Source: a virus
Virus record (IMG/VR): IMGVR_UViG_3300046000_004994
Span: 1-20,535 of that record
Reading direction: 5' to 3' (one strand)
Length of the DNA: 20,535 nucleotides
Position 1 is the stretch's first letter. Each line of letters begins with the position of its first letter. The translations under genes and the position numbers were made by a program. This document shows positions 4,211 through 20,324 of this stretch, piece after piece. The notes beneath the pieces were generated by a model that did not search any database, was not told the DNA's origin, and saw only the letters and a list, made by a program, of their open reading frames with translations.

Positions 4211-4924
4211 TCAGCCTGCCGAGACAAAGTTGATAGTGAGAATTACCGAAGGGATCGCAGGGCGGGTGGGCGTCGATTCGGCCGCATAGTGCTCAAGGAA
4301 CACATCGGTGCTGCTGGCCCACCAAGCGATCTCAAGGTAGTGGGTGCTTGGGTCGTTGACCGTGAAGATTCCGGTAATGGCAGGGACAATGTGAGACCAA
4401 ATTGAGCCACTTTTACGCGCCGGAATGTCAAAGCGCGTCCGGCTGCTAGAGTAGTTGACGCCTGTGTCCTTGGCCCAGACCTCAAATTCTTGCACCGCGT
4501 TGCTTCGATTGGAGACCTGAAGCGTGAACGTCACCAGATATTGCCCGGAACACGGGACATAGATCTTGCTGTTGTCCACCACCCGGATGCCGTTGGTGAG
4601 CGCCACCACGTCGTAGGTCAGAAGCTCTTCGGTTGTCGTGCTGGTGAGGTCCTGATCCACATTTGAGACCAGCATCGCATGCGGCAGGATGATGCCATTG
4701 GAGAGTTGAAAGCCGCGCACACCGCCAGCAAACCCGCCGCCCGCGCCTGACCCGGCGGACATCCAAGTCGCCGCACCGGCCGTGTTCTCACTAGTGATGG
4801 GCGTGTAGGTGTTGTTGAGCTGGAAGACGATCTGCTCAAGCGAACGAACCAACTGGTTGAACTGCTCCGGGCTGTAGTTCGTCGTGATCGCATTCGGCAG
4901 GCGAACATTGTTGATCTTACTCAT
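4211..4924 (-). CDS. Tail appendage protein with C1q/TNF-like C-terminal domain
   Basis: A 237-residue protein. Residues 1-40 contain a conserved-looking start (INNVRLPNAITTNYSPEQFN) leading into a short coiled coil (about 18-38) that could trimerise it. Residues 57-72 form a Gly-rich hinge. Residues about 98-234 look like a C1q/TNF jelly roll: strands around IYVPCSGQYLVTFTLQVSN, FEVWAKDTG, TRFDIPAR, THYLEIAWWASS and PSVILTINF follow the spacing and closing hydrophobic strand of that fold. Such domains form trimeric tips in phage fibres and spikes, so this is probably a short fibre or knob attached to the tail hub encoded just upstream. The start overlaps the hub stop as ATGA (4921-4924), indicating translational coupling. 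The fold assignment comes from pattern recognition only. Confidence 0.7.
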   Translation of the reverse strand: MSKINNVRLPNAITTNYSPEQFNQLVRSLEQIVFQLNNTYTPITSENTAGAATWMSAGSGAGGGFAGGVRGFQLSNGIILPHAMLVSNVDQDLTSTTTEELLTYDVVALTNGIRVVDNSKIYVPCSGQYLVTFTLQVSNRSNAVQEFEVWAKDTGVNYSSSRTRFDIPARKSGSIWSHIVPAITGIFTVNDPSTHYLEIAWWASSTDVFLEHYAAESTPTRPAIPSVILTINFVSAG

Positions 4925-6771
4925 CTGAGGCCGTCCGGCTGAATGTCAACACGCATCGTCCCAAACCGCCAGTTGCTATCGAGCTCATCACTCTCGATCC
5001 TGAGCTGAATCTGTCGGCCCCTAGCCCGGGTATCCACCTTCTGCGTCGTCGGCGTGATGACATACGGATCCAGTGAACTCGGACTCGCCGACGCCTGCGG
5101 AAACGGCCGCAGAAGCAACCGCACCGTCAGGTTGCCGACCTGATTTTTGAAGTCCGGGATGAACCGGCTCATCAGGAGCATGTTGTCGCCGTCGCCGATG
5201 TCAAAGTAGCCCGAGACGATGTAAGCCGGCAATGGCTCATCGATCGCGTTGACCCCGTCCTCTTGGTTATACACCGCTGTCCGCCCAGCCGTCAGACCGT
5301 AAATGGTGGAGATCGTCGCTTCGGTACTGTCCGGTTCATACTCGGTGGCCATCGGCTTTTCAAACGACCCAACATCCCGCCACGCGGTTCGCGGCATACT
5401 GCCCACGGACCAGACGTTCTCCAAGTAGTTGTAGGTCACGAAACGGTCGATATAGTCGCTCGTGAACGAGCAGTACCACCACGTCACCTCGTTGAACTGG
5501 GTGTTGATGCCGACATGCACCTTCTGCGCTTGAACGACGTTGAGGTCCTTGAACACATAGTCCTGCACCGTGCACGCCAGCTTCTTGACCGTGCCGTCGA
5601 AGACAAAGAACGCGTCCTTGCTCATCCAATACGCCACGCCGTTGACGTCAGCCGACGCATGGGGCCCGATACAGCCGCAATTCGCCCCAAGCTGCTGAAA
5701 TCCGAAGGTGTAGGGCGGACCCAGATACTGCTGACCATGGAGCGAGGTATCCGTCCAAATCAGGATCTGACCTCGCGATCGCACTGCCGTGATGATCTCA
5801 TTGCCGTCCGTGAGCCGTTGTCCGCCGGCCGTGTTCGTGGCCGTCTCTGCGAAGGTGTTGATGTCCTCCTGCGCCGAAAAGCGCACAAACATCGGATCCT
5901 GCGTGCTCGTCGAACCGATCGTGCCCTCTGTGCCAAAACAGACCAGATGCCGATCAGGCGTTGAAACCAGCGCGTATCGGCTCCGGGTGGGCGCGCCTGA
6001 AATCGCCGTCGCACGCGGGGACAACGTGATATCCGGCGTCCACTCGTAGATGCCTCCGTTGACAAGCTGGAGGATTAGGACCTCCCCAAACGTGTCAAAC
6101 TGCCAGACGCGCGAAAGCAAAAGAACCGGGACGCCCGAGGTACGGGGCGTGCCCCATGTGCCCGTGTTCCACGTGCCCGTGCCCCAGCCGTAGTCAAAGA
6201 AGCTGCGGTCATCGCCCACACTGATCTGATACGCCGCATCGGCCGATCCAGCCGCCGTGGCCGTGCTGGTCGCAGCGGTCGGCGAGGTGATTGCGTACTC
6301 GTCCGCCCCAACCACCTCGATGATCTGGAACTCGTTGTTCAAAGAGGCGTTGAGTATGCCGCCCGGATCGCCGGTCGTACTGCTGAATGTTACAAAGTCA
6401 CCGACGGACGCGTCATGCCCAACGTCGTTGACCACGACCCGGGTCAACCCGTTCGTGGTGTCAAAGGTGACCGTTCCAGTCGCGCGGATGGGGGTGATGT
6501 CCGCCCAGTTGCCCCCGGCAAACGCATAAACCTTCCGGCTGGTGCCGACCACCGCATAGGGCGTCCCGTCCAAGGCATTCCAAGTGAATACCTCGCTGGT
6601 CATCCCCACCAAGTACTCAGGCCCGTCGTTGAACCACTGCCAGCCGCCCGTCTTTTCCGGTAGCCCGTAGCGAAAGCGGATGTAGTCGCCGTCCACCCAG
6701 CCGCCCTCAGCACCGTATTCGGTGTTCTGTTTGTCGATTCCGGGCTTGAGAAAGAGTCGGAGCAGGGGCAT
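4921..6771 (-). CDS. P22 gp10-like tail hub / DNA stabilisation protein
   Basis: A 616-residue protein likely to form the tail hub that plugs the portal channel after packaging. Residues 9-44 hold the opening motif (PGIDKQNTEYGAEGGWVDGD, IRFRYGLPEKTGGW). The rest is beta-rich with blade-like repeats, as expected of a beta propeller. Residues about 362-400 (GANCGCIGPHASADVNGVAY, then MSKDAFFVFDGTVK) match in kind the P22 gp10 segment where a state-check strand precedes the next blade. The end (GRQIQLRIESDEL to MRVDIQPDGLR) resembles the closing strands of gp10. An ACAGGA ribosome binding site lies inside the end of the 34-residue ORF; only one base separates that stop from this ATG. Residues 145-185 contain a low-complexity Thr/Ala insertion. 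P22 gp10 itself is shorter. Assignment rests on remembered family pattern. Confidence 0.65.
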   Translation of the reverse strand: MPLLRLFLKPGIDKQNTEYGAEGGWVDGDYIRFRYGLPEKTGGWQWFNDGPEYLVGMTSEVFTWNALDGTPYAVVGTSRKVYAFAGGNWADITPIRATGTVTFDTTNGLTRVVVNDVGHDASVGDFVTFSSTTGDPGGILNASLNNEFQIIEVVGADEYAITSPTAATSTATAAGSADAAYQISVGDDRSFFDYGWGTGTWNTGTWGTPRTSGVPVLLLSRVWQFDTFGEVLILQLVNGGIYEWTPDITLSPRATAISGAPTRSRYALVSTPDRHLVCFGTEGTIGSTSTQDPMFVRFSAQEDINTFAETATNTAGGQRLTDGNEIITAVRSRGQILIWTDTSLHGQQYLGPPYTFGFQQLGANCGCIGPHASADVNGVAYWMSKDAFFVFDGTVKKLACTVQDYVFKDLNVVQAQKVHVGINTQFNEVTWWYCSFTSDYIDRFVTYNYLENVWSVGSMPRTAWRDVGSFEKPMATEYEPDSTEATISTIYGLTAGRTAVYNQEDGVNAIDEPLPAYIVSGYFDIGDGDNMLLMSRFIPDFKNQVGNLTVRLLLRPFPQASASPSSLDPYVITPTTQKVDTRARGRQIQLRIESDELDSNWRFGTMRVDIQPDGLR

Positions 6772-6772
6772 T

Positions 6773-6877
6773 TCAGTTTCCTGTCAAAGCCGCCAGCGCC
6801 TTGGCCTCCGGATCCGGAATGACCTTGTCCAAGACCTTGCCGGCAAAAGGCAGAAGAGCACTGAGCATGGGGAGCAT
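6773..6877 (-). CDS. 34-residue ORF resembling the N-terminus of 3TM-type holins
   Basis: This short frame lies between the tail fibre and hub genes. GGAGG stands six bases before the ATG at 6877, among the best ribosome binding sites in the window, and an in-frame TAA 15 bases upstream rules out a longer form. The product begins MLPMLSALLPFAG and continues VLDKVIPDPEAKALAAL, so a hydrophobic helix leads into a charged one. The DKVIPDPEAKA stretch is like the part after the first helix in 3TM holins, whose full-length candidate lies at 19824-20324. The stop (TGA) is one base from the hub ATG and holds the hub's ribosome binding site. It may be a minimal membrane peptide, an antiholin-like regulator, a hub accessory or a leader that couples hub translation. 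Function is unknown. Confidence 0.65.
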   Translation of the reverse strand: MLPMLSALLPFAGKVLDKVIPDPEAKALAALTGN

Positions 6878-6914
6878 ATTAGGCCTCCGTTATCCCGGGG
6901 TAAAGCTGTGTGGA

Positions 6915-8744
6915 TCAAGAAACACGGACAAAAAGACCGGGCCACCAACCGTACCTTGTGTCAGGATCTACAAACTCCGAAGAGTATCCGGGCCTGCCCA
7001 TGCACCTCCAAGTGCCAGACAACGACGTACCGCCGCCGTCGTATGTTGTAGATGAGTCCCTTGTTCTCCCAGTAGTATAGTCGGAGCGTCCATTATTAAA
7101 TGCGTTTGCAGTATAGTTGTAACGCAGCGTACTTCCCGCAATAGTGTCGCCAATACTCAATGAAAACGCGTTTGTATTTGGATGAGTACCGGGCACATAC
7201 AAAGCGACAACATAACTGCCGATTGAATCTACCGACGTTTGAGTCACTGCACCTGTCTGACCATTAACACTGGTAACGCCGCCGTTTGTCGCCGTAGTCG
7301 CAGTCGCCGCGTTTCCAGAAATGCTAATCCCCCAAGTCCCGCTCGCCCCGGTGCCGTCTGCTTTGGGTGCACCCACCGTGCTGTAATCAATCGTCCGTGC
7401 AGCGGACCCGTTAAAAGTCGTGCCAGCCGCAGCACCGCCCGACGTATTGAACGTCACAGCATTGGCAACCGATCCGGCAGAACCAGTTGTGTTCTGATTC
7501 AACGTCGGCACATCAGCGGCTTGAATGGCGCTCATCACGACGTTTGTGCCGGTACCGCGAAGATACTGCCCCGAAGTCGTGGCCCCAGCGAAGGCGTTCA
7601 TCGCAGCTTGGGCAGTAGTCTGACCCGTGCCACCATTACCCAGCGGCAATGTTCCAGTCACCCCAGTCGTCAATGGCAACCCAGTCGCGTTGGTCAGCGT
7701 GCCAGAACTCGGCGTGCCAAGTGCCCCGCCGTTCACAACAAACGCCCCGGACGATCCCACGTTCACCGCAAGCGCTGTGGCGACGTTTGACCCTAAGCCC
7801 GACACGCCCGTGCTGATCGGCAAGCCCGTAGCATTGGTCAGCGTGCCGGAGCTTGGCGTACCCAAGACGCCGCCGTTGACGACCACCGCCCCGGCCGTGC
7901 CTACGTTCACCGCAAGCGCAGTGGCGACGTTCGTGCCCAGCCCGCTCACACCCGTGCTGATCGGCAAGCCCGTTGCATTGGTCAGCGTGCCAGAGCTCGG
8001 CGTGCCCAAAACACCGCCATTGACGACAACCGCCCCGGCCGTGCCGACGTTGACCGCCAGAGCCGTGCCGACGTCCGTGCCCAGCCCGGCTACACCCGTA
8101 CTGATTGGCAACCCCGTCGCATTGGTCAGCGTGCCAGAGCTCGGCGTTCCAAGCACGCCCCCGTTGACAACCACCGCCCCGGCCGTGCCCACGTTCACCG
8201 CAAGCGCCGTCGCGACGTTCGTGCCCAGCCCGCTCACGCCCGTACTGATCGGCAGCCCCGTCGCGTTGGTCAAGACCCCCGAAGCAGGAGTCCCCAGCGC
8301 AGGAGTAACAAGCGTCGGGCTGACAAAATAATCCACCATCTGCACGACATTCGTGCCGTCCACGTACAGATGCGCTTTGCGGCCATTCGGCACCGTCACG
8401 CCCGTGCCGGCCGAGGTCTTGACCGTGATGCTTTGTCCGCCAGTCGTGTTGTTCTGGACGATGTACTGCTTCTCGATCGTCGGAACCACCAGCTCACGGG
8501 TCGTGGACAATGAGACGCCGGACGTCACATCAAGGACCAAGGCCCGCGCTGCTTGGGCCGAGTTGCTGTCTGTCAGTGAAATCGTCAGGTTCGCGTCACT
8601 GGCAAAGTTCGGATTGCCCTTGCCCACGATCGCCTGCTCAAGCGCCGTGCCAAGATTGGTGTTGGTGACAGTGCCCCACGTGTTCGACTTCTCCCCCGTG
8701 GCCATCAGCTCAATCTTGAGATTCGTAGAGAATGTACTTGCCAT
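6915..8744 (-). CDS. Tail fibre protein with five 48-residue repeats
   Basis: A 609-residue protein with classic tail-fibre layout. Residues 1-140 (start MASTFSTNLKIELMATGEKS, then NTWGTVTNTNLGTALEQAI) match the N-terminal virion-attachment domain I know from fibres of aquatic phages. Residues 150-364 are four full and one partial copy of a 48-residue repeat (LGTPSSGTLTNATGLPISTG). Residues about 365-490 have typical shaft sequence (LPLGNGGTGQTTAQAAMNA, SAGSVANAVTFN). The C-terminus ends in a tip with SGTWRCMGRP and GWWPGLFVRVS, the Trp-rich ending of many receptor-binding tips. The product should be an elongated trimer that contacts the host surface. An AAAGGA ribosome binding site precedes the ATG at 8744, just after a hairpin that spans the previous stop. 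The receptor cannot be inferred. Confidence 0.85.
   Translation of the reverse strand: MASTFSTNLKIELMATGEKSNTWGTVTNTNLGTALEQAIVGKGNPNFASDANLTISLTDSNSAQAARALVLDVTSGVSLSTTRELVVPTIEKQYIVQNNTTGGQSITVKTSAGTGVTVPNGRKAHLYVDGTNVVQMVDYFVSPTLVTPALGTPASGVLTNATGLPISTGVSGLGTNVATALAVNVGTAGAVVVNGGVLGTPSSGTLTNATGLPISTGVAGLGTDVGTALAVNVGTAGAVVVNGGVLGTPSSGTLTNATGLPISTGVSGLGTNVATALAVNVGTAGAVVVNGGVLGTPSSGTLTNATGLPISTGVSGLGSNVATALAVNVGSSGAFVVNGGALGTPSSGTLTNATGLPLTTGVTGTLPLGNGGTGQTTAQAAMNAFAGATTSGQYLRGTGTNVVMSAIQAADVPTLNQNTTGSAGSVANAVTFNTSGGAAAGTTFNGSAARTIDYSTVGAPKADGTGASGTWGISISGNAATATTATNGGVTSVNGQTGAVTQTSVDSIGSYVVALYVPGTHPNTNAFSLSIGDTIAGSTLRYNYTANAFNNGRSDYTTGRTRDSSTTYDGGGTSLSGTWRCMGRPGYSSEFVDPDTRYGWWPGLFVRVS
7653..8297 (-). 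repeat. Tandem 144-bp repeats in the tail fibre gene
   Basis: The landmark GCRTTGGTCA (plus strand) recurs at 7687, 7831, 7975, 8119 and 8263, exactly 144 bases apart. Four complete units and one partial unit encode the 48-residue fibre repeat. Units differ mostly at third codon positions while the protein sequence is nearly constant. Such arrays can gain or lose units by recombination and so change fibre length. Confidence 0.95.
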
Positions 8745-8758
8745 GATTCCGTCCTTTA

Positions 8759-8777
8759 TTGTGACGCTAGGTCACAA
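8759..8777 (-). promoter_or_regulatory. Hairpin across the stop codon between two tail genes
   Basis: The minus-strand RNA can form a 7-bp stem, TTGTGAC paired with GTCACAA, around a five-base loop CTAGC that includes most of the TAG stop at 8769-8767. It lies just before the AAAGGA ribosome binding site of the tail fibre gene. No U-run follows, so it is not a standard intrinsic terminator. It could affect mRNA stability or fibre translation. Confidence 0.35.
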
Positions 8778-9393
8778 CCTCGACCCAGTTCGTTGTTTGG
8801 CTGTCGTCCACAGTCACCCAGTTCGTCGTCTGACTGTCGTCTACGGTCGCCCAGTTCGGGACTTGGTTGTCGTCGATCGGCCCCCAGACCAACGCAACAC
8901 CGACCTGCCCGATCCCCGCCACGCCCACCGGGAACACACTACAGTTTCCGGTGATGACAACTGAGCCGACTTGGCCAGTAGCTGAGACGCCTGTTACAAC
9001 AACCGGCGTAATCAACTCTATGGTAACCGAGCCAACCAATCCTGTCGCGCTCACGCCCGTGACAGAGACGCTTGCACCGGCAGCTATTGCGACAGAACCT
9101 ACCTGCCCCGTGGCCTGAACCCCGGTAACGAGGACTGAGGTAACCAGATCAACCGTAACCGACCCTACCGCGCCGGTAGCCGATACTCCGGTCACATCAA
9201 CCGACGCATCCCCGGCCACATCCACTTGGCCGACTTGGCCAGATCCGGATACTCCGGTCAGACTGGTGTTGGCATCTCCGGTGACGGTCGCCGTTCCAAC
9301 TTGGCCAGTAGCCGCGACCCCCGTGGCATTGACATTGGCGCTGCCGGTGACCGCAACATCGCCCACCAGCCCTGTGGCCGAGACGCCCGTGAC
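8767..9393 (-). repeat. 66-bp coding repeats plus 33-bp terminal repeats
   Basis: Eight in-frame units of 66 bases (about 8866-9393) encode the 22-residue beta repeat. They are followed toward 8767 by 33-base units encoding the NW-VDDSQTT motif. DNA identity between 66-base units is moderate, which argues for old duplications held by protein structure. The array is not CRISPR-like: there are no conserved repeats alternating with unique spacers. Confidence 0.85.
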
Positions 9394-12400: not shown

Positions 12401-14625
12401 GTCAGCGTCATCGCACTTGTTCGTGCCGACGCATCAAACGTACCGATGTTCCACGAGGCATCGATTGTGATCGTTCCCGTCACGCTGCCAGCTTCATCGA
12501 ACACCGCCGTATCTTGTGCAAGCGGGAAGTTGTTGATGTCAGGCGACCCACCCGATCCCGGTGCCCAAGCCGTAGCACTCCAGTTCTGAGCGCCAGCAAG
12601 GTTCCAGTACACAGTCTTCGGAGCAGGGAACGTGATCCCAGAGTTCCCACCGCAGTCACCAGCGCGGGTCGGAGATGATCCAGCAGCAGTACCGGCTATC
12701 GTGATGTCTCGGAAGTCGCAGTCAGTCGCGGATAGAGTGCCAACGGTCAGGGTGCGGGTGGTGCCAAGAGTATCAGAGCGAACAAAGATGCGGCGTACTA
12801 CTGTGGCTCCGGCGACGGTGAGGGTGCCGGTGATAGTGTTATTAGCCAAAAATGAACACTGCATAAATCCGGCTGATGACGGAGCAGTAAATGTCAAATT
12901 ATTAAAAGTATTTGCACCGTAGATATTTTTAACTGACGCAGCGGTTCCCGTAAACGTGACATTGTAAAATGTCCTTCCGCCACCATCAAATATAATGTTA
13001 CCGCCACCAACCGACACGGTTGATGTTCCAGCGTTAAATGTTAGGTTGGTCGATGTTGTAAAATCCAAAGTACCTGAAACTGTTATCGTACTCGACCCAA
13101 GCGTAATTGTCCTAACGTTGCTGTTGTTGGATGACAAAGAGCCAGCAGTGACGTTGTAGTTCTTGGTGTCGAACGTGCCGTTCGTGACGGTGAGTGCGCT
13201 GGAACTAATGTTCAGCGCATCAGCAAGCTCGACTGTGCCACCATAGGAGTCAATTGTGATTGCACCTGAGAGCGTTTTTCCTGCGCTGGTGATGGTCTGT
13301 GTGTTGCGTCCAGAAAATGTCAAAGTACCAGAATAGCTTTGAGTTACCCCGCTACCAAGCACCCAATTTCCGTACACTGCATAGCCAGTTGATCCGGCCA
13401 GCGTCATCGCATTTGTCCGCGTGGACATATCGATAGTGCCAAAATAAGTAATAGTATTGTCCAGCGTCACCGTAGCCGACGTATTCAACCCCGTGTTCTC
13501 GATAACAGCCGTATCCTGAGCGAGCGGGAAGTTGTTTGTGCTGACAGCGCCGCCAGATGATGCCGCCCAAGCGTTTGCGCTCCAGTTTCCACCTGCGGCA
13601 AGGTTCCAGTAGACGGTCTTCGGGGTAGACGCAGTGATTCCTCTGATGCCTCTCAGATCACCAATCCTTGTGCCAGAGATCGGTGCAGCAGTGCCACTAA
13701 CGTAGATGTCTCGGAAGTCAGCGTCGGTCAGGCTGGGAGCAGAGTTGATGGTGAGGGTATGGGCAATGCCGTAGGTAGAGGAGCGGAACCAAACGCGACA
13801 GTTGCCTGCGGTGCCGGTTGTGGAGAGGGTGCCGTTGATGGTTTGGCGGGAGTTAAATGTTACCTGTGTAACCCGTGCGGAAGACGGCCCAGTTACGGTT
13901 ATATTGTTAAACGTGTTTATCGCATTTATCTGATGTGTGTCACCATTTGTAGAAGTAAGAGACACATTATAGAAGGTTACTCCAGTACTGGTTATCGCTC
14001 CTCCAGCAATAGTTGCTGCCGTGGAAGAACAGTTTATTTGTGAAGTACCTGCATTGAATGTGAGATTTGTATTTGTAGAAAAACTGATAGCTGTGCCAGA
14101 ACTCAACGTCACCGTAGACGATCCAAGATTGATCGTGCGGGTATTGCTGTTGCTGGAGGATAGGGAGGTTGCAGTGACGTTGTAGTTAGCAGTGTCAAAT
14201 GTGCCTTGTGTAACCGTCAGCGTTCCAGAAGATGTCAACGCATCACCAAGCGTTACGGTGATCCCAGATCCATTTATATTAAGTTGACCGATTGTTTTAC
14301 CTGCGGTTGTCAGCGTTCCTGTTCCATTAATCGTTAAAATACCGTTATAAGTAACGGCCATCCCTGCTACAAACGTGACGCTACCAGACACGGTCATACC
14401 GGAATTACCCGCTAAAGTTCCTGTGAACCCAGTACAGTTGATCGACTTTGCTCCGGTGTTGCCGGATGAGATCGTGCAGGTGCCGGTGGAGAGGTTCGTG
14501 AAGAACACATCATCCGCACTGGTAGGAACAGAAGCGCCGCCAGCACCACCAGACGTAGTAGCCCATTTGGTACCGACAGTGCCGTCCCAGTTTGCCGTCC
14601 CGCCAACCCAGTACCTGTCGGCCAT
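9475..14625 (-). CDS. Giant modular beta-solenoid adhesin-like tail protein
   Basis: At 1,716 residues this is the largest gene here. It has five modules of 334-355 residues whose landmark Trp motif falls at about residues 5, 339, 673, 1016 and 1362. Modules 1 and 4 begin with a YWVGGT motif; modules 2, 3 and 5 begin YWNLA, then NNFPLAQDT. Each continues with Thr/Ser/Gly-rich short beta strands (GTLTVTNGTFDT, SNVRTITLGSSTI, NTFNNLTFTAPSS), typical of a right-handed beta helix. Modules 3 and 5 end with a distinct cap (QTFGKWTVTGTVG; QRVSQWTAAGESG) and a GANST motif. There is no signal peptide. The end is Pro-rich and hydrophobic (APAPPTPSGSGNFFFVFL). It probably forms a long surface spike or fibre for host or polysaccharide binding. 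No catalytic motif is recognised. GAAGG precedes the ATG, two bases after the upstream TAG. Confidence 0.85.
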   Translation of the reverse strand: MADRYWVGGTANWDGTVGTKWATTSGGAGGASVPTSADDVFFTNLSTGTCTISSGNTGAKSINCTGFTGTLAGNSGMTVSGSVTFVAGMAVTYNGILTINGTGTLTTAGKTIGQLNINGSGITVTLGDALTSSGTLTVTQGTFDTANYNVTATSLSSSNSNTRTINLGSSTVTLSSGTAISFSTNTNLTFNAGTSQINCSSTAATIAGGAITSTGVTFYNVSLTSTNGDTHQINAINTFNNITVTGPSSARVTQVTFNSRQTINGTLSTTGTAGNCRVWFRSSTYGIAHTLTINSAPSLTDADFRDIYVSGTAAPISGTRIGDLRGIRGITASTPKTVYWNLAAGGNWSANAWAASSGGAVSTNNFPLAQDTAVIENTGLNTSATVTLDNTITYFGTIDMSTRTNAMTLAGSTGYAVYGNWVLGSGVTQSYSGTLTFSGRNTQTITSAGKTLSGAITIDSYGGTVELADALNISSSALTVTNGTFDTKNYNVTAGSLSSNNSNVRTITLGSSTITVSGTLDFTTSTNLTFNAGTSTVSVGGGNIIFDGGGRTFYNVTFTGTAASVKNIYGANTFNNLTFTAPSSAGFMQCSFLANNTITGTLTVAGATVVRRIFVRSDTLGTTRTLTVGTLSATDCDFRDITIAGTAAGSSPTRAGDCGGNSGITFPAPKTVYWNLAGAQNWSATAWAPGSGGSPDINNFPLAQDTAVFDEAGSVTGTITIDASWNIGTFDASARTSAMTLTTGSNDPLVHGDWKFGTGVTSTSAAGNLIFSKRGSQTITSNGVTFGCPLNINNISGTVQLADALTLNSARSLAIVSGTFDAVSYSVAVGFFSASGSTLRTLKMGSGTWTLSGTGSIWDTATTSNLNFYKSTANIVLSDTSATARTFVGGSLSYNKLTIGGATGISTTTITGSNQFTELASTKTVAHTIALGSTTQTFGKWTVTGTVGNVVTLTGTGTSHILAGACTDSIDYLAIGSIRFADASPGEFYAGANSTATGSPAAPTYLTAKPADSTRYWVGGTGNWSDTARWSTGSGGGSGASVPRSHDDVVFDSLSNATAYTATVNAVTGGIRMKALTIAGPASGNVTLAGSTAMVGIHGNVTLPATGLTRTYTGAITLTGSTSGKTLTTNGVALASAITVNGVGCEWTLGSALTIGTSNNFTVTNGLIDFDTYNVTVGAIVSNGSNSRTIDFGSSVVSIGLTGLNFGTTETVAANLTIVAGTSTINIDNTNGDFDGNGKTFHNVAFTSSSAGTPEIRGVNTFNNLSFTGVFFAGVKNILVYANQTINGTLTFVGGSDATCRQFCRSDTLGTTRTLTCAAVSLVDVDFRDITIAGAAAPATGTRIGDCKGNSGITFTAAANKYWNLAGNNNWSATAWATSSGGSPSVNNFPLAQDTCIFESTSPGTGATTTINQSYNIGTIDMSARTTNTMTLATGSTTPFIYGNWINGTGTTLTGTGTMTFAGRGSQTITSAGKTFTQALSVNSPSGLVTLQDALITSDSLTLVTGTLDVNGYVLTNSSSSSFTASGVLLKTLALGTGTFTLAASGASAFNNSAGTLTVTGTGTISLTSASAKTFAGGGIAYTDITLNQGGAGTLTISGNNTFKDITNTYKATGATNITLGTTTQRVSQWTAAGESGRVLTVQGTSASSPATLVLTGATDPNVDYLTATGIRAYDLTDTWYVGANSTNNGSLGLLFEAAPAPPTPSGSGNFFFVFL
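9475..14625 (-). repeat. Five degenerate ~1-kb modules in the giant tail gene
   Basis: Homologous module starts lie near 14613, 13611, 12609, 11580 and 10542 (minus-strand reading), a period of about 1.0 kb. Conserved stretches such as GCAAGGTTCCARTA (plus strand, near 10530, 12600 and 13600) persist at DNA level. The order is two internal-type modules and a terminal-type module, then one internal and one terminal module. This implies duplication or deletion of whole modules. Confidence 0.85.
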
Positions 14626-14840: not shown

Positions 14841-15728
14841 TTAAGCCTCTTGAGCTACTGCGACAGCATCCCAACGGGAATCTGCAATGTTGTAAATGCA
14901 TCCCACATAGACTGTCTTGTTGATCACCGTCGTTGTAGGCAGCGTTATCCCGACAGCGCGAAATCCTTTGCTAACTCCGGTCGTCCAAGTCAATGCTCTA
15001 GCAACCCCGTTATCCTTGATCCGAAATACTGCTCTCTGACCATCAGTCGGCGTTCCAGCATCCGCGTTGATTGTTAACGCATTAGCTAGGGCCGAAAAGC
15101 TCTGTTGATCATAACTGTCGCTGTTCCAAGCAAACGGGGATGCTGTAGTGGTTTGAGCGTTGCAGCGTTGGGTAATCCGCTTGTTGGTAAGCGTTTCAAC
15201 CCCATCGGTTGTGGCTTGATTAATTTGAGCCAGAACCTGAACTGCGTTCAAACTGTCCAAGAAGTACAGTTTCCCGTCAGCGGTATTGACCACCAACTCA
15301 CCAGCAGACAGGCTAAGAGCGGTCGGAACTGCTCCGGGTATGCTGCTGTATCGAAGCTGGATCGTGGTGGTGTTGCCAACCAGACTTGCTGATGTCGCAG
15401 GAACAATTTCGGAATTGTTGTCCACCAACACGGCTCGTTCTGCCGGATAGGTCAGGAATACATCTTTGCTACCCGCACCCCAGTTGACTGCTGATCCGCT
15501 GTTGCTCGACGCAAGGATCGTGTCACGGCTGAGAGTCGTACCGGATGACGTATACGTCCCAACACCGACCTCCCAGTTCGTGCCGTCAGTGACCGTGTAA
15601 TAGGTGGAGTTTCCGTTACCTACAACGGCAAACGATTGAAACCCCGTCACCGCACCTGCAAGCGTATAAGTACCCGTGCTGGTAGTTGTCGTGGTTTCCT
15701 TTACACGATCCTTGACGATAAGGGCCAT
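14841..15728 (-). CDS. Tail fibre-like structural protein (MALIVKD type)
   Basis: A 295-residue beta-rich structural protein. Residues 1-100 hold a conserved domain (MALIVKDRVKETTTTTSTG, then GNGNSTYYTVTDGTNWEVG and LSRDTILASSNSG, AGSKDVFLTYPAERA). Residues about 135-160 carry LSAGELVVNTADGKLYFLDS, a module found in many fibre and baseplate-attached proteins. Residues about 175-190 have the fibre motif GVETLTNKRITQR. The C-terminus (about 225-295) has RAVFRIKDNGVARALTW and NKTVYVGCIYNIADSRWDAV, a beta sandwich I recall from the same family. The order of modules suggests a fibre base or adaptor on which larger adhesins sit. AAAGG lies eight bases before the ATG, nine bases after the preceding stop. 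Confidence 0.8.
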   Translation of the reverse strand: MALIVKDRVKETTTTTSTGTYTLAGAVTGFQSFAVVGNGNSTYYTVTDGTNWEVGVGTYTSSGTTLSRDTILASSNSGSAVNWGAGSKDVFLTYPAERAVLVDNNSEIVPATSASLVGNTTTIQLRYSSIPGAVPTALSLSAGELVVNTADGKLYFLDSLNAVQVLAQINQATTDGVETLTNKRITQRCNAQTTTASPFAWNSDSYDQQSFSALANALTINADAGTPTDGQRAVFRIKDNGVARALTWTTGVSKGFRAVGITLPTTTVINKTVYVGCIYNIADSRWDAVAVAQEA

Positions 15729-15737
15729 GATCTACCT

Positions 15738-16175
15738 TTAAGCAATCCGGATGATCGCGTTACTTGCATCGGCAGTCGGGAAGATGATGGTGAACGTCCC
15801 AGCCGTCGAAGTCTTCGCCCCGCCAAAGTCCAAAATACAGACCGAAGGGTCGCCCGCTGCTGAGTCGTTGTAGATCATCGCGCCAAAGGCCGTGATCGTC
15901 GCACTGGTAAACGACAAGTCCGCAAAGTCCGTGAACGCAGTCGTACTAGAGCTCGTCGGCGTCACATTGGTCAACGCTCCGCCGCCCGCAGAGTACGTTC
16001 CAGACGCCCCCACCTCGTTGGTCGAGGTGTAGGCCGTAGTCGCCGCCGTAAACGAAGCGCTGTTGTCGTAGAGCGCCAGCTTGAACGTGTTGCCCGTGCT
16101 GGCCGTGAAGTTGTGCACTGCCCTCATCAGCTCAACCTTGAAGCTGGTGCACATAAAATTGCCGGTGAATGCCAT
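15738..16175 (-). CDS. Beta-rich putative tail structural protein (MAFTGNF type)
   Basis: A 145-residue protein starting MAFTGNFMCTSFKVELMRAV. The open frame extends 23 codons further upstream, but GGAGGA lies five bases before the ATG at 16175 and the extension would overlap the 95-residue gene completely out of frame, so 16175 is the start. Just one base separates it from that gene's TAA. The sequence has short strands (NTFKLALYDNSASFT, DFADLSFTSATITAFGAMIY, GTFTIIFPTADASNAIIRIA), with NEVGASGTYSAGG in the middle. I have seen this family in aquatic phages as a hypothetical protein beside fibre genes. A minor tail or decoration protein is the best guess. Confidence 0.75.
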   Translation of the reverse strand: MAFTGNFMCTSFKVELMRAVHNFTASTGNTFKLALYDNSASFTAATTAYTSTNEVGASGTYSAGGGALTNVTPTSSSTTAFTDFADLSFTSATITAFGAMIYNDSAAGDPSVCILDFGGAKTSTAGTFTIIFPTADASNAIIRIA

Positions 16176-16176
16176 G

Positions 16177-16464
16177 TTAGTCCTCCAAAATTGAGCGCAA
16201 ATCCGCATGTCCGGCTTGGCCCAGCCTATTTGCAATGGTTGCACGGTCCTGCTGGACCGCTTCCTTCAGATAGAACAGGACAACCTGCTTGACCTGCTCC
16301 TTGAATGCACGCGCCTGAGCCTGTACCGCCGGATGCGACTGGTCTCCGACAAACACAATCTTGTCAGCGGCCCGCTGCGCGAGCTCCTCAGGCGTCCAGC
16401 CTCGCGCGGCCGTGGTGGCGACCTGTACACCACCCAACAAAACAGGGGATTGAACAGAAATCAT
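16177..16464 (-). CDS. Small helical phage protein, 95 residues
   Basis: A 95-residue protein. A short beta-rich start (MISVQSPVLLGGVQVATT) is followed by GWTPEELAQRAADKIVFVGD and three helices (about 45-92) rich in Gln, Ala and charged residues. It has no Cys, signal or membrane segment. I recall homologues between connector and fibre genes in uncultured aquatic phages, where they have no function assigned. Its ATG overlaps the upstream adaptor stop as ATGA (16461-16464) with only a distant GGAG, so it probably depends on coupled translation. Its position between adaptor and fibre genes suggests an assembly or minor tail role. Confidence 0.75.
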   Translation of the reverse strand: MISVQSPVLLGGVQVATTAARGWTPEELAQRAADKIVFVGDQSHPAVQAQARAFKEQVKQVVLFYLKEAVQQDRATIANRLGQAGHADLRSILED

Positions 16465-17465: not shown

Positions 17466-18131
17466 TCATATCCCTAGATCCGGAACAAACTGCACACTGG
17501 CAGTGTCACGATCCTCAAGGGCAGCTCGCTGGAAGTCCTCATCGTAGATGGCCTTCAAGGCCTGCGTCCGCTCAGGCGCAAACTTCAGGGACAGATAGTA
17601 GGCCAGCCCGGACGCCAGACACGGCAGAAAACGGAAGTTGATATCCGTCGTGTTGGTGTAGTCCCCCGCATCTTGGATGCGCCGAATCCGGTAGTACACG
17701 AACGTGTACGTCTGATCCGCTGCCGGATAGAAAAACACCTTCGGCGTGTTGGCGCGCTGCACATAGAACTGTGCAGGACGGGCCTGCGAGGTCTTGTCCG
17801 GGACGTTCAACCAGTCTTCCCGACTGATCCGCTCGATGTAGACGTCCGTATTGATGCCTTGGCTGTTCTGACGGATGATGGCTTCGAGCACGTTGACCGT
17901 ATCCGAGGCCAATGTGATCTCATTGTTCCCCTGAGTCAGCGTATAGGTCGCCTGCTCAATGGTCCAAAGGTTCAACCCGCGATTGGCCCAGTCCAAGAAA
18001 AGCAAGTTGAGCGAGCGGCGCGCCGTGTTGAGCTGATATCCGCTCTGCGGGCGCATCCCGCAACGCTCAAATGCCTCTTCGACGAGGTCATCAATCGAGA
18101 GGTCAAACGTGGTGGTGCCGGAAGTAGTCAT
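17466..18131 (-). CDS. Head-tail adaptor-like protein
   Basis: A 221-residue protein that fits the adaptor family of short-tailed phages (phages such as SU10, and functionally T7 gp11 or P22 gp4). Helical N-terminus: FDLSIDDLVEEAFERCGMRP, then TARRSLNLLFLDWANRGLNL with LWTIEQATYTL. Central beta part: NEITLASDTVNVLEAIIRQN, then ISREDWLNVPDKTSQARPAQ and FYVQRANTPKVFFYPAADQT. C-terminal helices: RFLPCLASGLAYYLSLKFAP, then TQALKAIYDEDFQRA. The pattern of Trp, Arg and the FLPCLASGLAYYL helix is what I recognise. It should join the portal to the tail. It starts in an ATGA overlap with the preceding gene (18128-18131), has no clear ribosome binding site of its own, and is separated from the next gene by one base. 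Confidence 0.7.
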   Translation of the reverse strand: MTTSGTTTFDLSIDDLVEEAFERCGMRPQSGYQLNTARRSLNLLFLDWANRGLNLWTIEQATYTLTQGNNEITLASDTVNVLEAIIRQNSQGINTDVYIERISREDWLNVPDKTSQARPAQFYVQRANTPKVFFYPAADQTYTFVYYRIRRIQDAGDYTNTTDINFRFLPCLASGLAYYLSLKFAPERTQALKAIYDEDFQRAALEDRDTASVQFVPDLGI

Positions 18132-18796
18132 TTGCTGTACAGGTTATTAAATGTTGCTTGCGCATCCATGTACGAGTCGTCCTGCTCCGCACAATGTGTC
18201 CACTGACTCGGCCTGAAGTCGGGGGCCCCTTCTCCTGTCTGCCAAAACGCAGGGCTTGTGACCCGGACGCGATTGTTTGGCAGCGCCACAATGTTCCCTG
18301 TCCACTTGCCCGCATCGGTCAAGATTAGTACATGACTTTGCTTGTGCTGTGCAGGGCAATCAGCTACCTCGCTCTCCGAGTAGTCCACAGTAAACAGATA
18401 CCTGCCAGTGTGAAACTCGCCGTCAATCTTGCACAGCCATGGACTGGGGCTGGTTCTCGCAAACTTCACCACAGTGTGGTGGTGTGAAGGACAGTCCCAA
18501 GGCTGTGCCAAGTGCGTAGGCATACGCTCTGGCCACTCCTCCAATGGTATGTCCCCCACCAGCGCTGTGATAGGCATACGCGCCCACATTGCTCCCCCAT
18601 GCACGTTTTCGGAGTCATCTACCAAGCTTTCACACCCGGTAAATACGATCTGAAAACTCAAGCAACGATCCGGCATGGCATTTACCGCAATGACATTTGC
18701 GTGCAAATACTCGCCATGGTACTTCTGGTGCATGTGGGTAAACTCGCGTCTAACCCAGCACTTGAAGTACGGAATGTTGCTGATGAGGTAGGCCAT
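18128..18796 (-). CDS. Conserved His/Cys-rich protein of unknown function (LISNIPYF type)
   Basis: A 222-residue protein with 13 His and 7 Cys, unusual for a structural protein. It opens MAYLISNIPYFKCWVRREFT, a start I recall in proteins of uncultured aquatic phages without function. Later landmarks are GAMWARMPITALVG, WDCPSHHHTVVKF, FHTGRYLFTVDYSESEVADC, and PNNRVRVTSPAFW. Alternating hydrophobic strands and aromatic residues suggest a beta-rich globular fold. The His and Cys clusters (residues 13-45 and about 105-155) could bind a metal, but no known metal-binding signature is complete. The stop overlaps the adaptor ATG (ATGA), and the ATG overlaps the upstream TAA by one base (TAATG). Stable association with adaptors suggests a tail or assembly role. 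Confidence 0.75.
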   Translation of the reverse strand: MAYLISNIPYFKCWVRREFTHMHQKYHGEYLHANVIAVNAMPDRCLSFQIVFTGCESLVDDSENVHGGAMWARMPITALVGDIPLEEWPERMPTHLAQPWDCPSHHHTVVKFARTSPSPWLCKIDGEFHTGRYLFTVDYSESEVADCPAQHKQSHVLILTDAGKWTGNIVALPNNRVRVTSPAFWQTGEGAPDFRPSQWTHCAEQDDSYMDAQATFNNLYSK

Positions 18797-19823: not shown

Positions 19824-20324
19824 TTACCTCTTCTGCTCTTTAAGCTCTGCCGCAAGGGTTTCAGTCTTCTCCTTGCTGCCTGCGCTCGATCCAAGGAAAA
19901 AGTTGATGATGGTCGCTACCACTGTACCCAACAGGAAGCCAAGAATAGTGTCAGCAAAGCGCACGTTGCTTTCTTGGATGGTTCCAAAGGTAATGAAGAA
20001 AATGTAGGTCACCGCAGTAATCGACCAAAAGGTCGCCAGATACATCACAAACCGCTTGGCAAACTTGTCGTCCTGACCCAGCGCAACCACCTGCATCGCC
20101 CGAGCGTCCGCCGTGTTCTTGTTGGCTTGCTCGATCTTGAACTCTTCGTGCTTCTGAGCCGCTTCGCGCAGAGCTTTGACTTCCTCTGCGTTCATGTCAG
20201 GCTTGAGCTCCAGCCCGGTCTTCTCCTGCACGTAGTCCAGACCCTTGTCCACCACCGCTTGCGCGACCTTTGGCAGGTTGTTCTGGATCAGGGAAGAAAC
20301 GATTCCCGCGATTAGAGGTGCCAT
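19824..20324 (-). CDS. Holin candidate, 3TM superfamily
   Basis: A 166-residue protein with the plan of the 3TM phage holin superfamily. An N-terminal hydrophobic, weakly amphipathic helix (residues 3-25, LIAGIVSSLIQNNLP) is followed by a charged linker (DYVQEKTGLEL, then EEVKALREAAQKHEEFKIEQ, ANKNTADARAMQVVALGQDD). Two clear membrane helices lie at about 91-113 (RFVMYLATFWSITAVTYIFF) and 125-143 (TILGFLLGTVVATIINFFLG), with a short Lys/Glu-rich tail. Holins form membrane lesions that release endolysin at the end of infection. No endolysin or spanin gene is visible nearby. The ATG overlaps the upstream stop as TGATG. The family is assigned from remembered pattern, but the match is good along its full length. 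Confidence 0.8.
   Translation of the reverse strand: MAPLIAGIVSSLIQNNLPKVAQAVVDKGLDYVQEKTGLELKPDMNAEEVKALREAAQKHEEFKIEQANKNTADARAMQVVALGQDDKFAKRFVMYLATFWSITAVTYIFFITFGTIQESNVRFADTILGFLLGTVVATIINFFLGSSAGSKEKTETLAAELKEQKR

Follow-up and report, generated by a model that had tools for sequence, protein, structure and literature searches.

What is the 34-codon open reading frame (ORF) that lies directly upstream of the hub gene in the viral record IMGVR_UViG_3300046000_004994 of IMG/VR? The whole stretch analysed, 20,535 nucleotides, is here called the window. The sequence-only reading of this DNA proposed either a minimal holin or antiholin partner for the protein encoded at 19824-20324 (here P0005) or a leader that couples translation of the hub. 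The features on which the answer depends are given below; L006 is a close relative whose hub is 96% identical to that of the window.

4921..6771, minus strand: hub or stabilization protein gene (gp10-like), one base after the stop of the 34-codon ORF; phrog_3287 virion structural protein (E=2.9e-88), and 'stabilization protein' in phage DSL-LC04.
6773..6877, minus strand: 34-codon fusion ORF, stop codon included, read as a deletion scar from its translation and the comparison with L006.
6773..6802, minus strand: endolysin-derived part (blastn block 2), the final 9 codons of a GH19-type endolysin with the stop, the microhomology being counted here.
6798..6802, minus strand: the join, a 5-nt microhomology (AAGGC) where the two blastn blocks overlap.
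6803..6888, minus strand: holin-derived part, comprising GGAGG, the start codon and the first 25 codons of a 3TM holin (blastn block 1).
6884..6888, minus strand: GGAGG ribosome binding site, taken over from the holin gene.
6915..8744, minus strand: tail-fibre-like gene upstream of the scar, an ORF with weak family matches only (phrog_31104) and 144-nt repeats.
19824..20324, minus strand: likely holin of a separate lysis cassette (P0005), from hhalign and its endolysin neighbourhood.

The minus strand from 6877 to 6773 translates to MLPMLSALLPFAGKVLDKVIPDPEAKALAALTGN, followed by the stop codon. The translation signals described earlier are all in place: GGAGG (6884-6888) precedes the ATG by six bases, an upstream in-frame TAA is separated from the ATG by four codons, the border with the hub reads TGA, a single A and the hub ATG, and AGGAAA in the last codons of the ORF is a plausible ribosome binding site for the hub. 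The two strands of the window together contain 71 ORFs of 25-60 codons that begin with ATG, and of these only the present ORF is preceded by GGAGG, AGGAGG or AAGGAG at a distance of 4-14 bases. The hydrophobic helix that had been noted is present, but it is short and broken by Pro10 and Lys14. A Kyte-Doolittle mean of 1.6 is often applied as the threshold for a membrane span; the best 19-residue mean of the 34-mer is 1.29 and that of the corresponding region of the intact L006 holin 1.43, each below that value. With 34 residues and this score, the peptide does not provide the three membrane helices of a 3TM holin.

Family searches with the 34-mer gave no Pfam match at E values up to 10, so that the cut-off of PF11351 (GTA_holin_3TM) was not reached, and matched the PHROGs families phrog_402 (unknown function, E=0.015) and phrog_3427 (holin, E=0.16). 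In GenBank phages, tblastn with the peptide gave 15 matches, each weak singly (E values of 0.01 to 9), and all 15 fall at holin-annotated genes. Together with the L006 alignment, these matches show that the likeness to the start of 3TM holins reported from the letters alone is true homology. A plasmid search gave no match.

Between the same borders, L006 encodes a complete 3TM holin (137 aa, L006:3008-3421) and a GH19-type endolysin (193 aa, L006:3418-3999). The holin matches PF11351 (E=9.9e-10) and the endolysin PF00182 (Glyco_hydro_19, E=1.2e-12), both above the curated cut-offs; the corresponding PHROGs families are phrog_3427 (holin) and phrog_181 (endolysin). Two blastn blocks connect the window to this cassette. 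The first runs from the GGAGG to the join (window reverse complement 13648-13738, L006 2997-3087, 96.7%), and the second starts with the nine final endolysin codons and extends into the hub (window reverse complement 13734 onward, L006 3970 onward, 93%). The blocks overlap by 5 nt (AAGGC) and their offsets differ by 887, so 887 bp are missing relative to L006, and the fusion is in frame. Codons 1-25 therefore derive from the holin and codons 28-34 from the endolysin, with codons 26-27 in or next to the shared bases. Shared with the holin gene are the ribosome binding site, the start and the first 25 residues (24 of 25 identical); lacking are its remaining 112 residues, which include the site of its sole 19-residue window above 1.6 (from residue 80). 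Shared with the endolysin gene are the last 9 residues (KALAALTGN), the stop and its one-base spacing to the hub, whereas the other 184 residues, catalytic domain included, are gone. The ends of the ORF thus match two adjacent L006 genes whose intervening part is missing. The sequence comparison shows, on the left, a 3TM holin start complete with its ribosome binding site, joined at a 5-nt microhomology to the terminal codons of a GH19-type endolysin on the right. We conclude that the ORF is almost certainly the in-frame scar of an 887-bp deletion that took out the bulk of a holin-endolysin cassette located immediately before the hub gene. Counting against this reading, L006 is a single contig, and its endolysin is without a close relative (next best 46%).

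Could the join have been made by an assembler rather than by the phage? Every carrier is a metagenome contig, and a search of GenBank phages for DNA nearly identical to window positions 5500-9000 gave no match, so no isolate was found. However, the join is common to six contigs with three diverged alleles, and an overlap of 5 nt is too short to mislead an assembler. We regard an assembly artefact as extremely improbable.

The direction of the change was read from related loci. These were obtained with queries based on the hub, the holin, the endolysin, P0005 or motifs, and for that reason the numbers that follow are not frequencies. The order holin, endolysin, hub occurs in 51 fetched loci, in which the endolysin is an M15 peptidase (26), GH108 (14) or GH19 (11). 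Under a stricter filter 50 loci remain, which form 39 clusters when grouped by 95% identity of the holin. The distance from the endolysin match to the hub start is below 60 nt in 24 of these 50; in the other 26 the hub lies 61 to 4915 nt further on or the hub match is partial, and several of the hub matches are only 23-33% identical. The annotated GenBank phage DSL-LC04 (OR003939), with a hub 66% identical to that of the window, likewise encodes a holin, an M15 peptidase and the stabilization protein in that order; its cassette is intact, although its endolysin is the M15 peptidase and not GH19. A proposed family, 'Dishuiviridae', is given for DSL-LC04 (PMC10611076). The intact order is thus widespread, which argues for deletion rather than insertion. 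The alternative, that a cassette was inserted into a short gene already present, was rejected, since each end of the scar is the end of a gene that is widely conserved.

Hub relatives were fetched from IMG/VR as the best 80 of at least 599, and among them L002-L005 carry a 34-codon ORF of like form ahead of the hub. Among the fetched loci, these four carriers are also the only ones in which a holin start is followed by the hub with no GH19, GH108 or M15 match between them. Quite different genes occupy the slot ahead of the hub in other hub relatives, which means that the ORF does not regularly accompany the hub. Of the 186 loci whose holin match has an E value no higher than 1e-10 (a limit that excludes the scars), four give products shorter than 100 residues, all four apparently cut by the locus end; thus, no second short form of the holin was seen.

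The scar is carried by six contigs as three alleles (the window and L002; L003 and L004; L005 and L166), all with open frames. Two exact-match patterns, one covering the join and the other the block ahead of the start, each matched the same five contigs apart from the window, and the pattern for the block after the join matched those five and L006. The check for broken frames in relatives that the sequence-only reading had suggested found none in the six carriers, although with exact patterns diverged or broken copies of the scar could be missed. Searched in genome contigs, the junction pattern matched three stretches, each within a long open frame (1089, 2628 and 1089 nt), and by eye none of the three has a likeness to holins.

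Counting against a mere scar are the open frame in all six known carriers and the greater number of synonymous than of non-synonymous changes. Three synonymous changes separate the alleles, along with two non-synonymous ones: D17N, shared by the second and third alleles, and A12D, confined to the third. At an expected non-synonymous share of 0.70-0.75, the probability of two or fewer among five without selection is about 0.10-0.16, and a total of five changes is too small a sample to show selection; rough pairwise ratios for the hub are 0.04-0.18. The 55 bases ahead of the scar start are identical in two alleles, and the third differs at three bases, two of them at the far edge. With a flank this constant, the ORF is not clearly more conserved than its surroundings.

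Both non-synonymous changes depart from the constraints on holins. Residue 17 is Asp in 131 of 131 unique full-length holins and Asn in four of the six scar contigs; at residue 12 the 131 holins have G, A, I or L, whereas two of the six contigs have an Asp, which lies within the helix. The 131 sequences comprise 44 from a pattern that requires Asp17, 67 from a holin search (one of its six patterns includes the site), 15 fetched through the endolysin, 3 from other sources and 2 that belong to none of these groups. The 15 fetched through the endolysin all have Asp17.

Beyond the constant block upstream of the scar, the sequence differs among the three alleles, as if fibre ends had been exchanged there. 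Our own reading of the 6915-8744 product is that it is a tail fibre; within its gene, positions 7675-8272 hold 4.2 tandem copies of a 144-nt unit (48 codons).

The idea that P0005 is a holin gains ground, and we consider it likely on profile comparison and on its neighbourhood. The P0005 family gave hhalign values of 93.9-95.7% with the 3TM holin family, as against no more than 0.5% for five control families from the same neighbourhoods; with the six-member holin set of L007 the value was only 7.7%, and all of these profiles are shallow. P0005 itself belongs to phrog_1544, of unknown function, and has no holin match in Pfam, including none to PF11351 at E up to 10. Among 80 loci with P0005 relatives, 70 have an endolysin of the GH108 or GH19 type nearby (GH108 directly downstream in 49, GH19 directly downstream in 3, GH108 60-700 nt upstream in 18). 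The other ten have none of the three endolysin types in view, and four of them have short flanks. L007 has a PF11351 holin between GH108 and a DUF6321-like gene, which is the position of P0005 in the window, and L172, whose P0005 is 99% identical, has GH108, a 150-codon gene and P0005 in that order. The window ends within the 150-codon gene, and the endolysin of its own genome would lie outside it.

Positions 18128-18796 of the window hold a 222-codon gene matching phrog_3704 ('ferredoxin', E=1.3e-29), which is present in L172 and not at the same place in L007. The L007 record (L250 reversed, 17620-18237) has a 205-codon ORF with Cys near its start (VCDCGKEC), between relatives of the window neighbours 15738-16244 and 14841-15728; it recurs in L172 (10684-11301) after a relative of window gene 15738-16244.

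With a likely holin in the window, the fusion peptide might have been kept as an antiholin or holin modulator, in which the holin start would interfere with the 19824-20324 holin and delay lysis. The retained holin start and ribosome binding site, and a frame open in all six carriers, are consistent with this. Holin-derived antiholins such as that of dual-start lambda S offer a parallel, in that the scar too encodes a holin-related product that might modulate a holin. However, lambda S-type antiholins retain membrane spans, whereas the scar keeps only the N-terminal 25 holin residues, with no 19-residue stretch at a membrane-span score (nor does the corresponding region of the L006 holin have one). 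P0005 is also a holin of a different type, without a PF11351 match. The comparison does not support the purpose-made minimal holin or antiholin partner proposed earlier: the ORF is a fusion of 25 holin and 9 endolysin codons from which most of the holin is gone, it occurs in one small lineage, and Asp17 has been lost in four of the six contigs and Asp12 gained in two. The antiholin idea is without specific support, and we think such a role very unlikely.

We propose that illegitimate recombination at the 5-nt microhomology produced the deletion, probably once, in an ancestor of the six carriers. The deletion may have been tolerated by the phage because another lysis cassette, with a GH108 endolysin near the holin-like 19824-20324 protein, would serve lysis. 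The scar records, all of them fragments, contain no GH108 or phrog_181 match (0 of 6, window included), so the argument for tolerance rests on relatives. P0005 was matched in 3 of 20 searched records and in none of the other five scar records, also fragments. PF11351 was matched in 2 of 20 records (L006 and L007; the window was not among the 20) and in none of the five scar records, and GH108 in 14 of 28 records; among the same 28, only the L006 record matched phrog_181. Because its site, start and frame are kept, the peptide is probably still translated; it would no longer act in lysis, and its translation may at most aid ribosomes in reaching the hub start.

That last step bears on the leader proposed by the sequence-only reading, which adds to the deletion and does not deny it: the scar would have been kept as a leader cistron, and its translation would bring ribosomes to the place where the hub begins. 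The strong inherited ribosome binding site, the TGA-A-ATG border and the frame open in six of six carriers are in keeping with such a role, as is a fold around the hub start that is somewhat stabler than in shuffled sequences (z=-1.75, 7 of 200). However, the stop-start border came with the endolysin gene, as in L006, the hub has a plausible site of its own, and the five changes in three alleles cannot show constraint. We consider the leader unlikely.

A sister clade provides further deletions in the same slot. Relative to L023, three internal deletions (312, 366 and 337 nt) in a 145-codon gene before the hub have joins with overlaps of 5, 4 and 5 nt, and leave mini-ORFs of 41, 23 and 35 codons with AGGAGG sites, ending 8, 8 and 1 nt from the hub. 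The mini-ORFs directly before the hub are as follows.

L009 and L010: 41 codons.
L011, L012 and L034: 23 codons.
L025-L027: 35 codons.

Including the 34-codon scar, four distinct microhomology-deletion joins thus precede the hub; two are perhaps nested, since the 366-nt deletion could lie on the 312-nt one and these two may not be independent. By our reading of the sequences, other frames in the sister clade would likewise stop close to the hub start or continue into it; the pattern of mini-ORFs is therefore partly expected and is suggestive only. A broader proposal is that the slot before the hub is deletion-prone, that deletions persist if a translated mini-ORF runs to the hub start, and that the 34-codon fusion would be one of several coupling leaders. 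This we hold to be improbable, although a coupling role appears more plausible than an antiholin role.

A deletion scar is an already known kind of thing, and coupling to the hub is a testable side question. Literature searches on truncated holins, antiholins, remnant lysis cassettes and 3TM holins gave no title or abstract opening that concerns this locus. The finding shows that a recombination scar can pass for a convincing small gene, as this one does with its genuine holin homology and strong ribosome binding site, and this matters for annotating small phage proteins. It is also a case in which one lysis cassette was lost from a lineage that probably has a second, and the set of microhomology deletions just before the hub provides material for tests of translational coupling.
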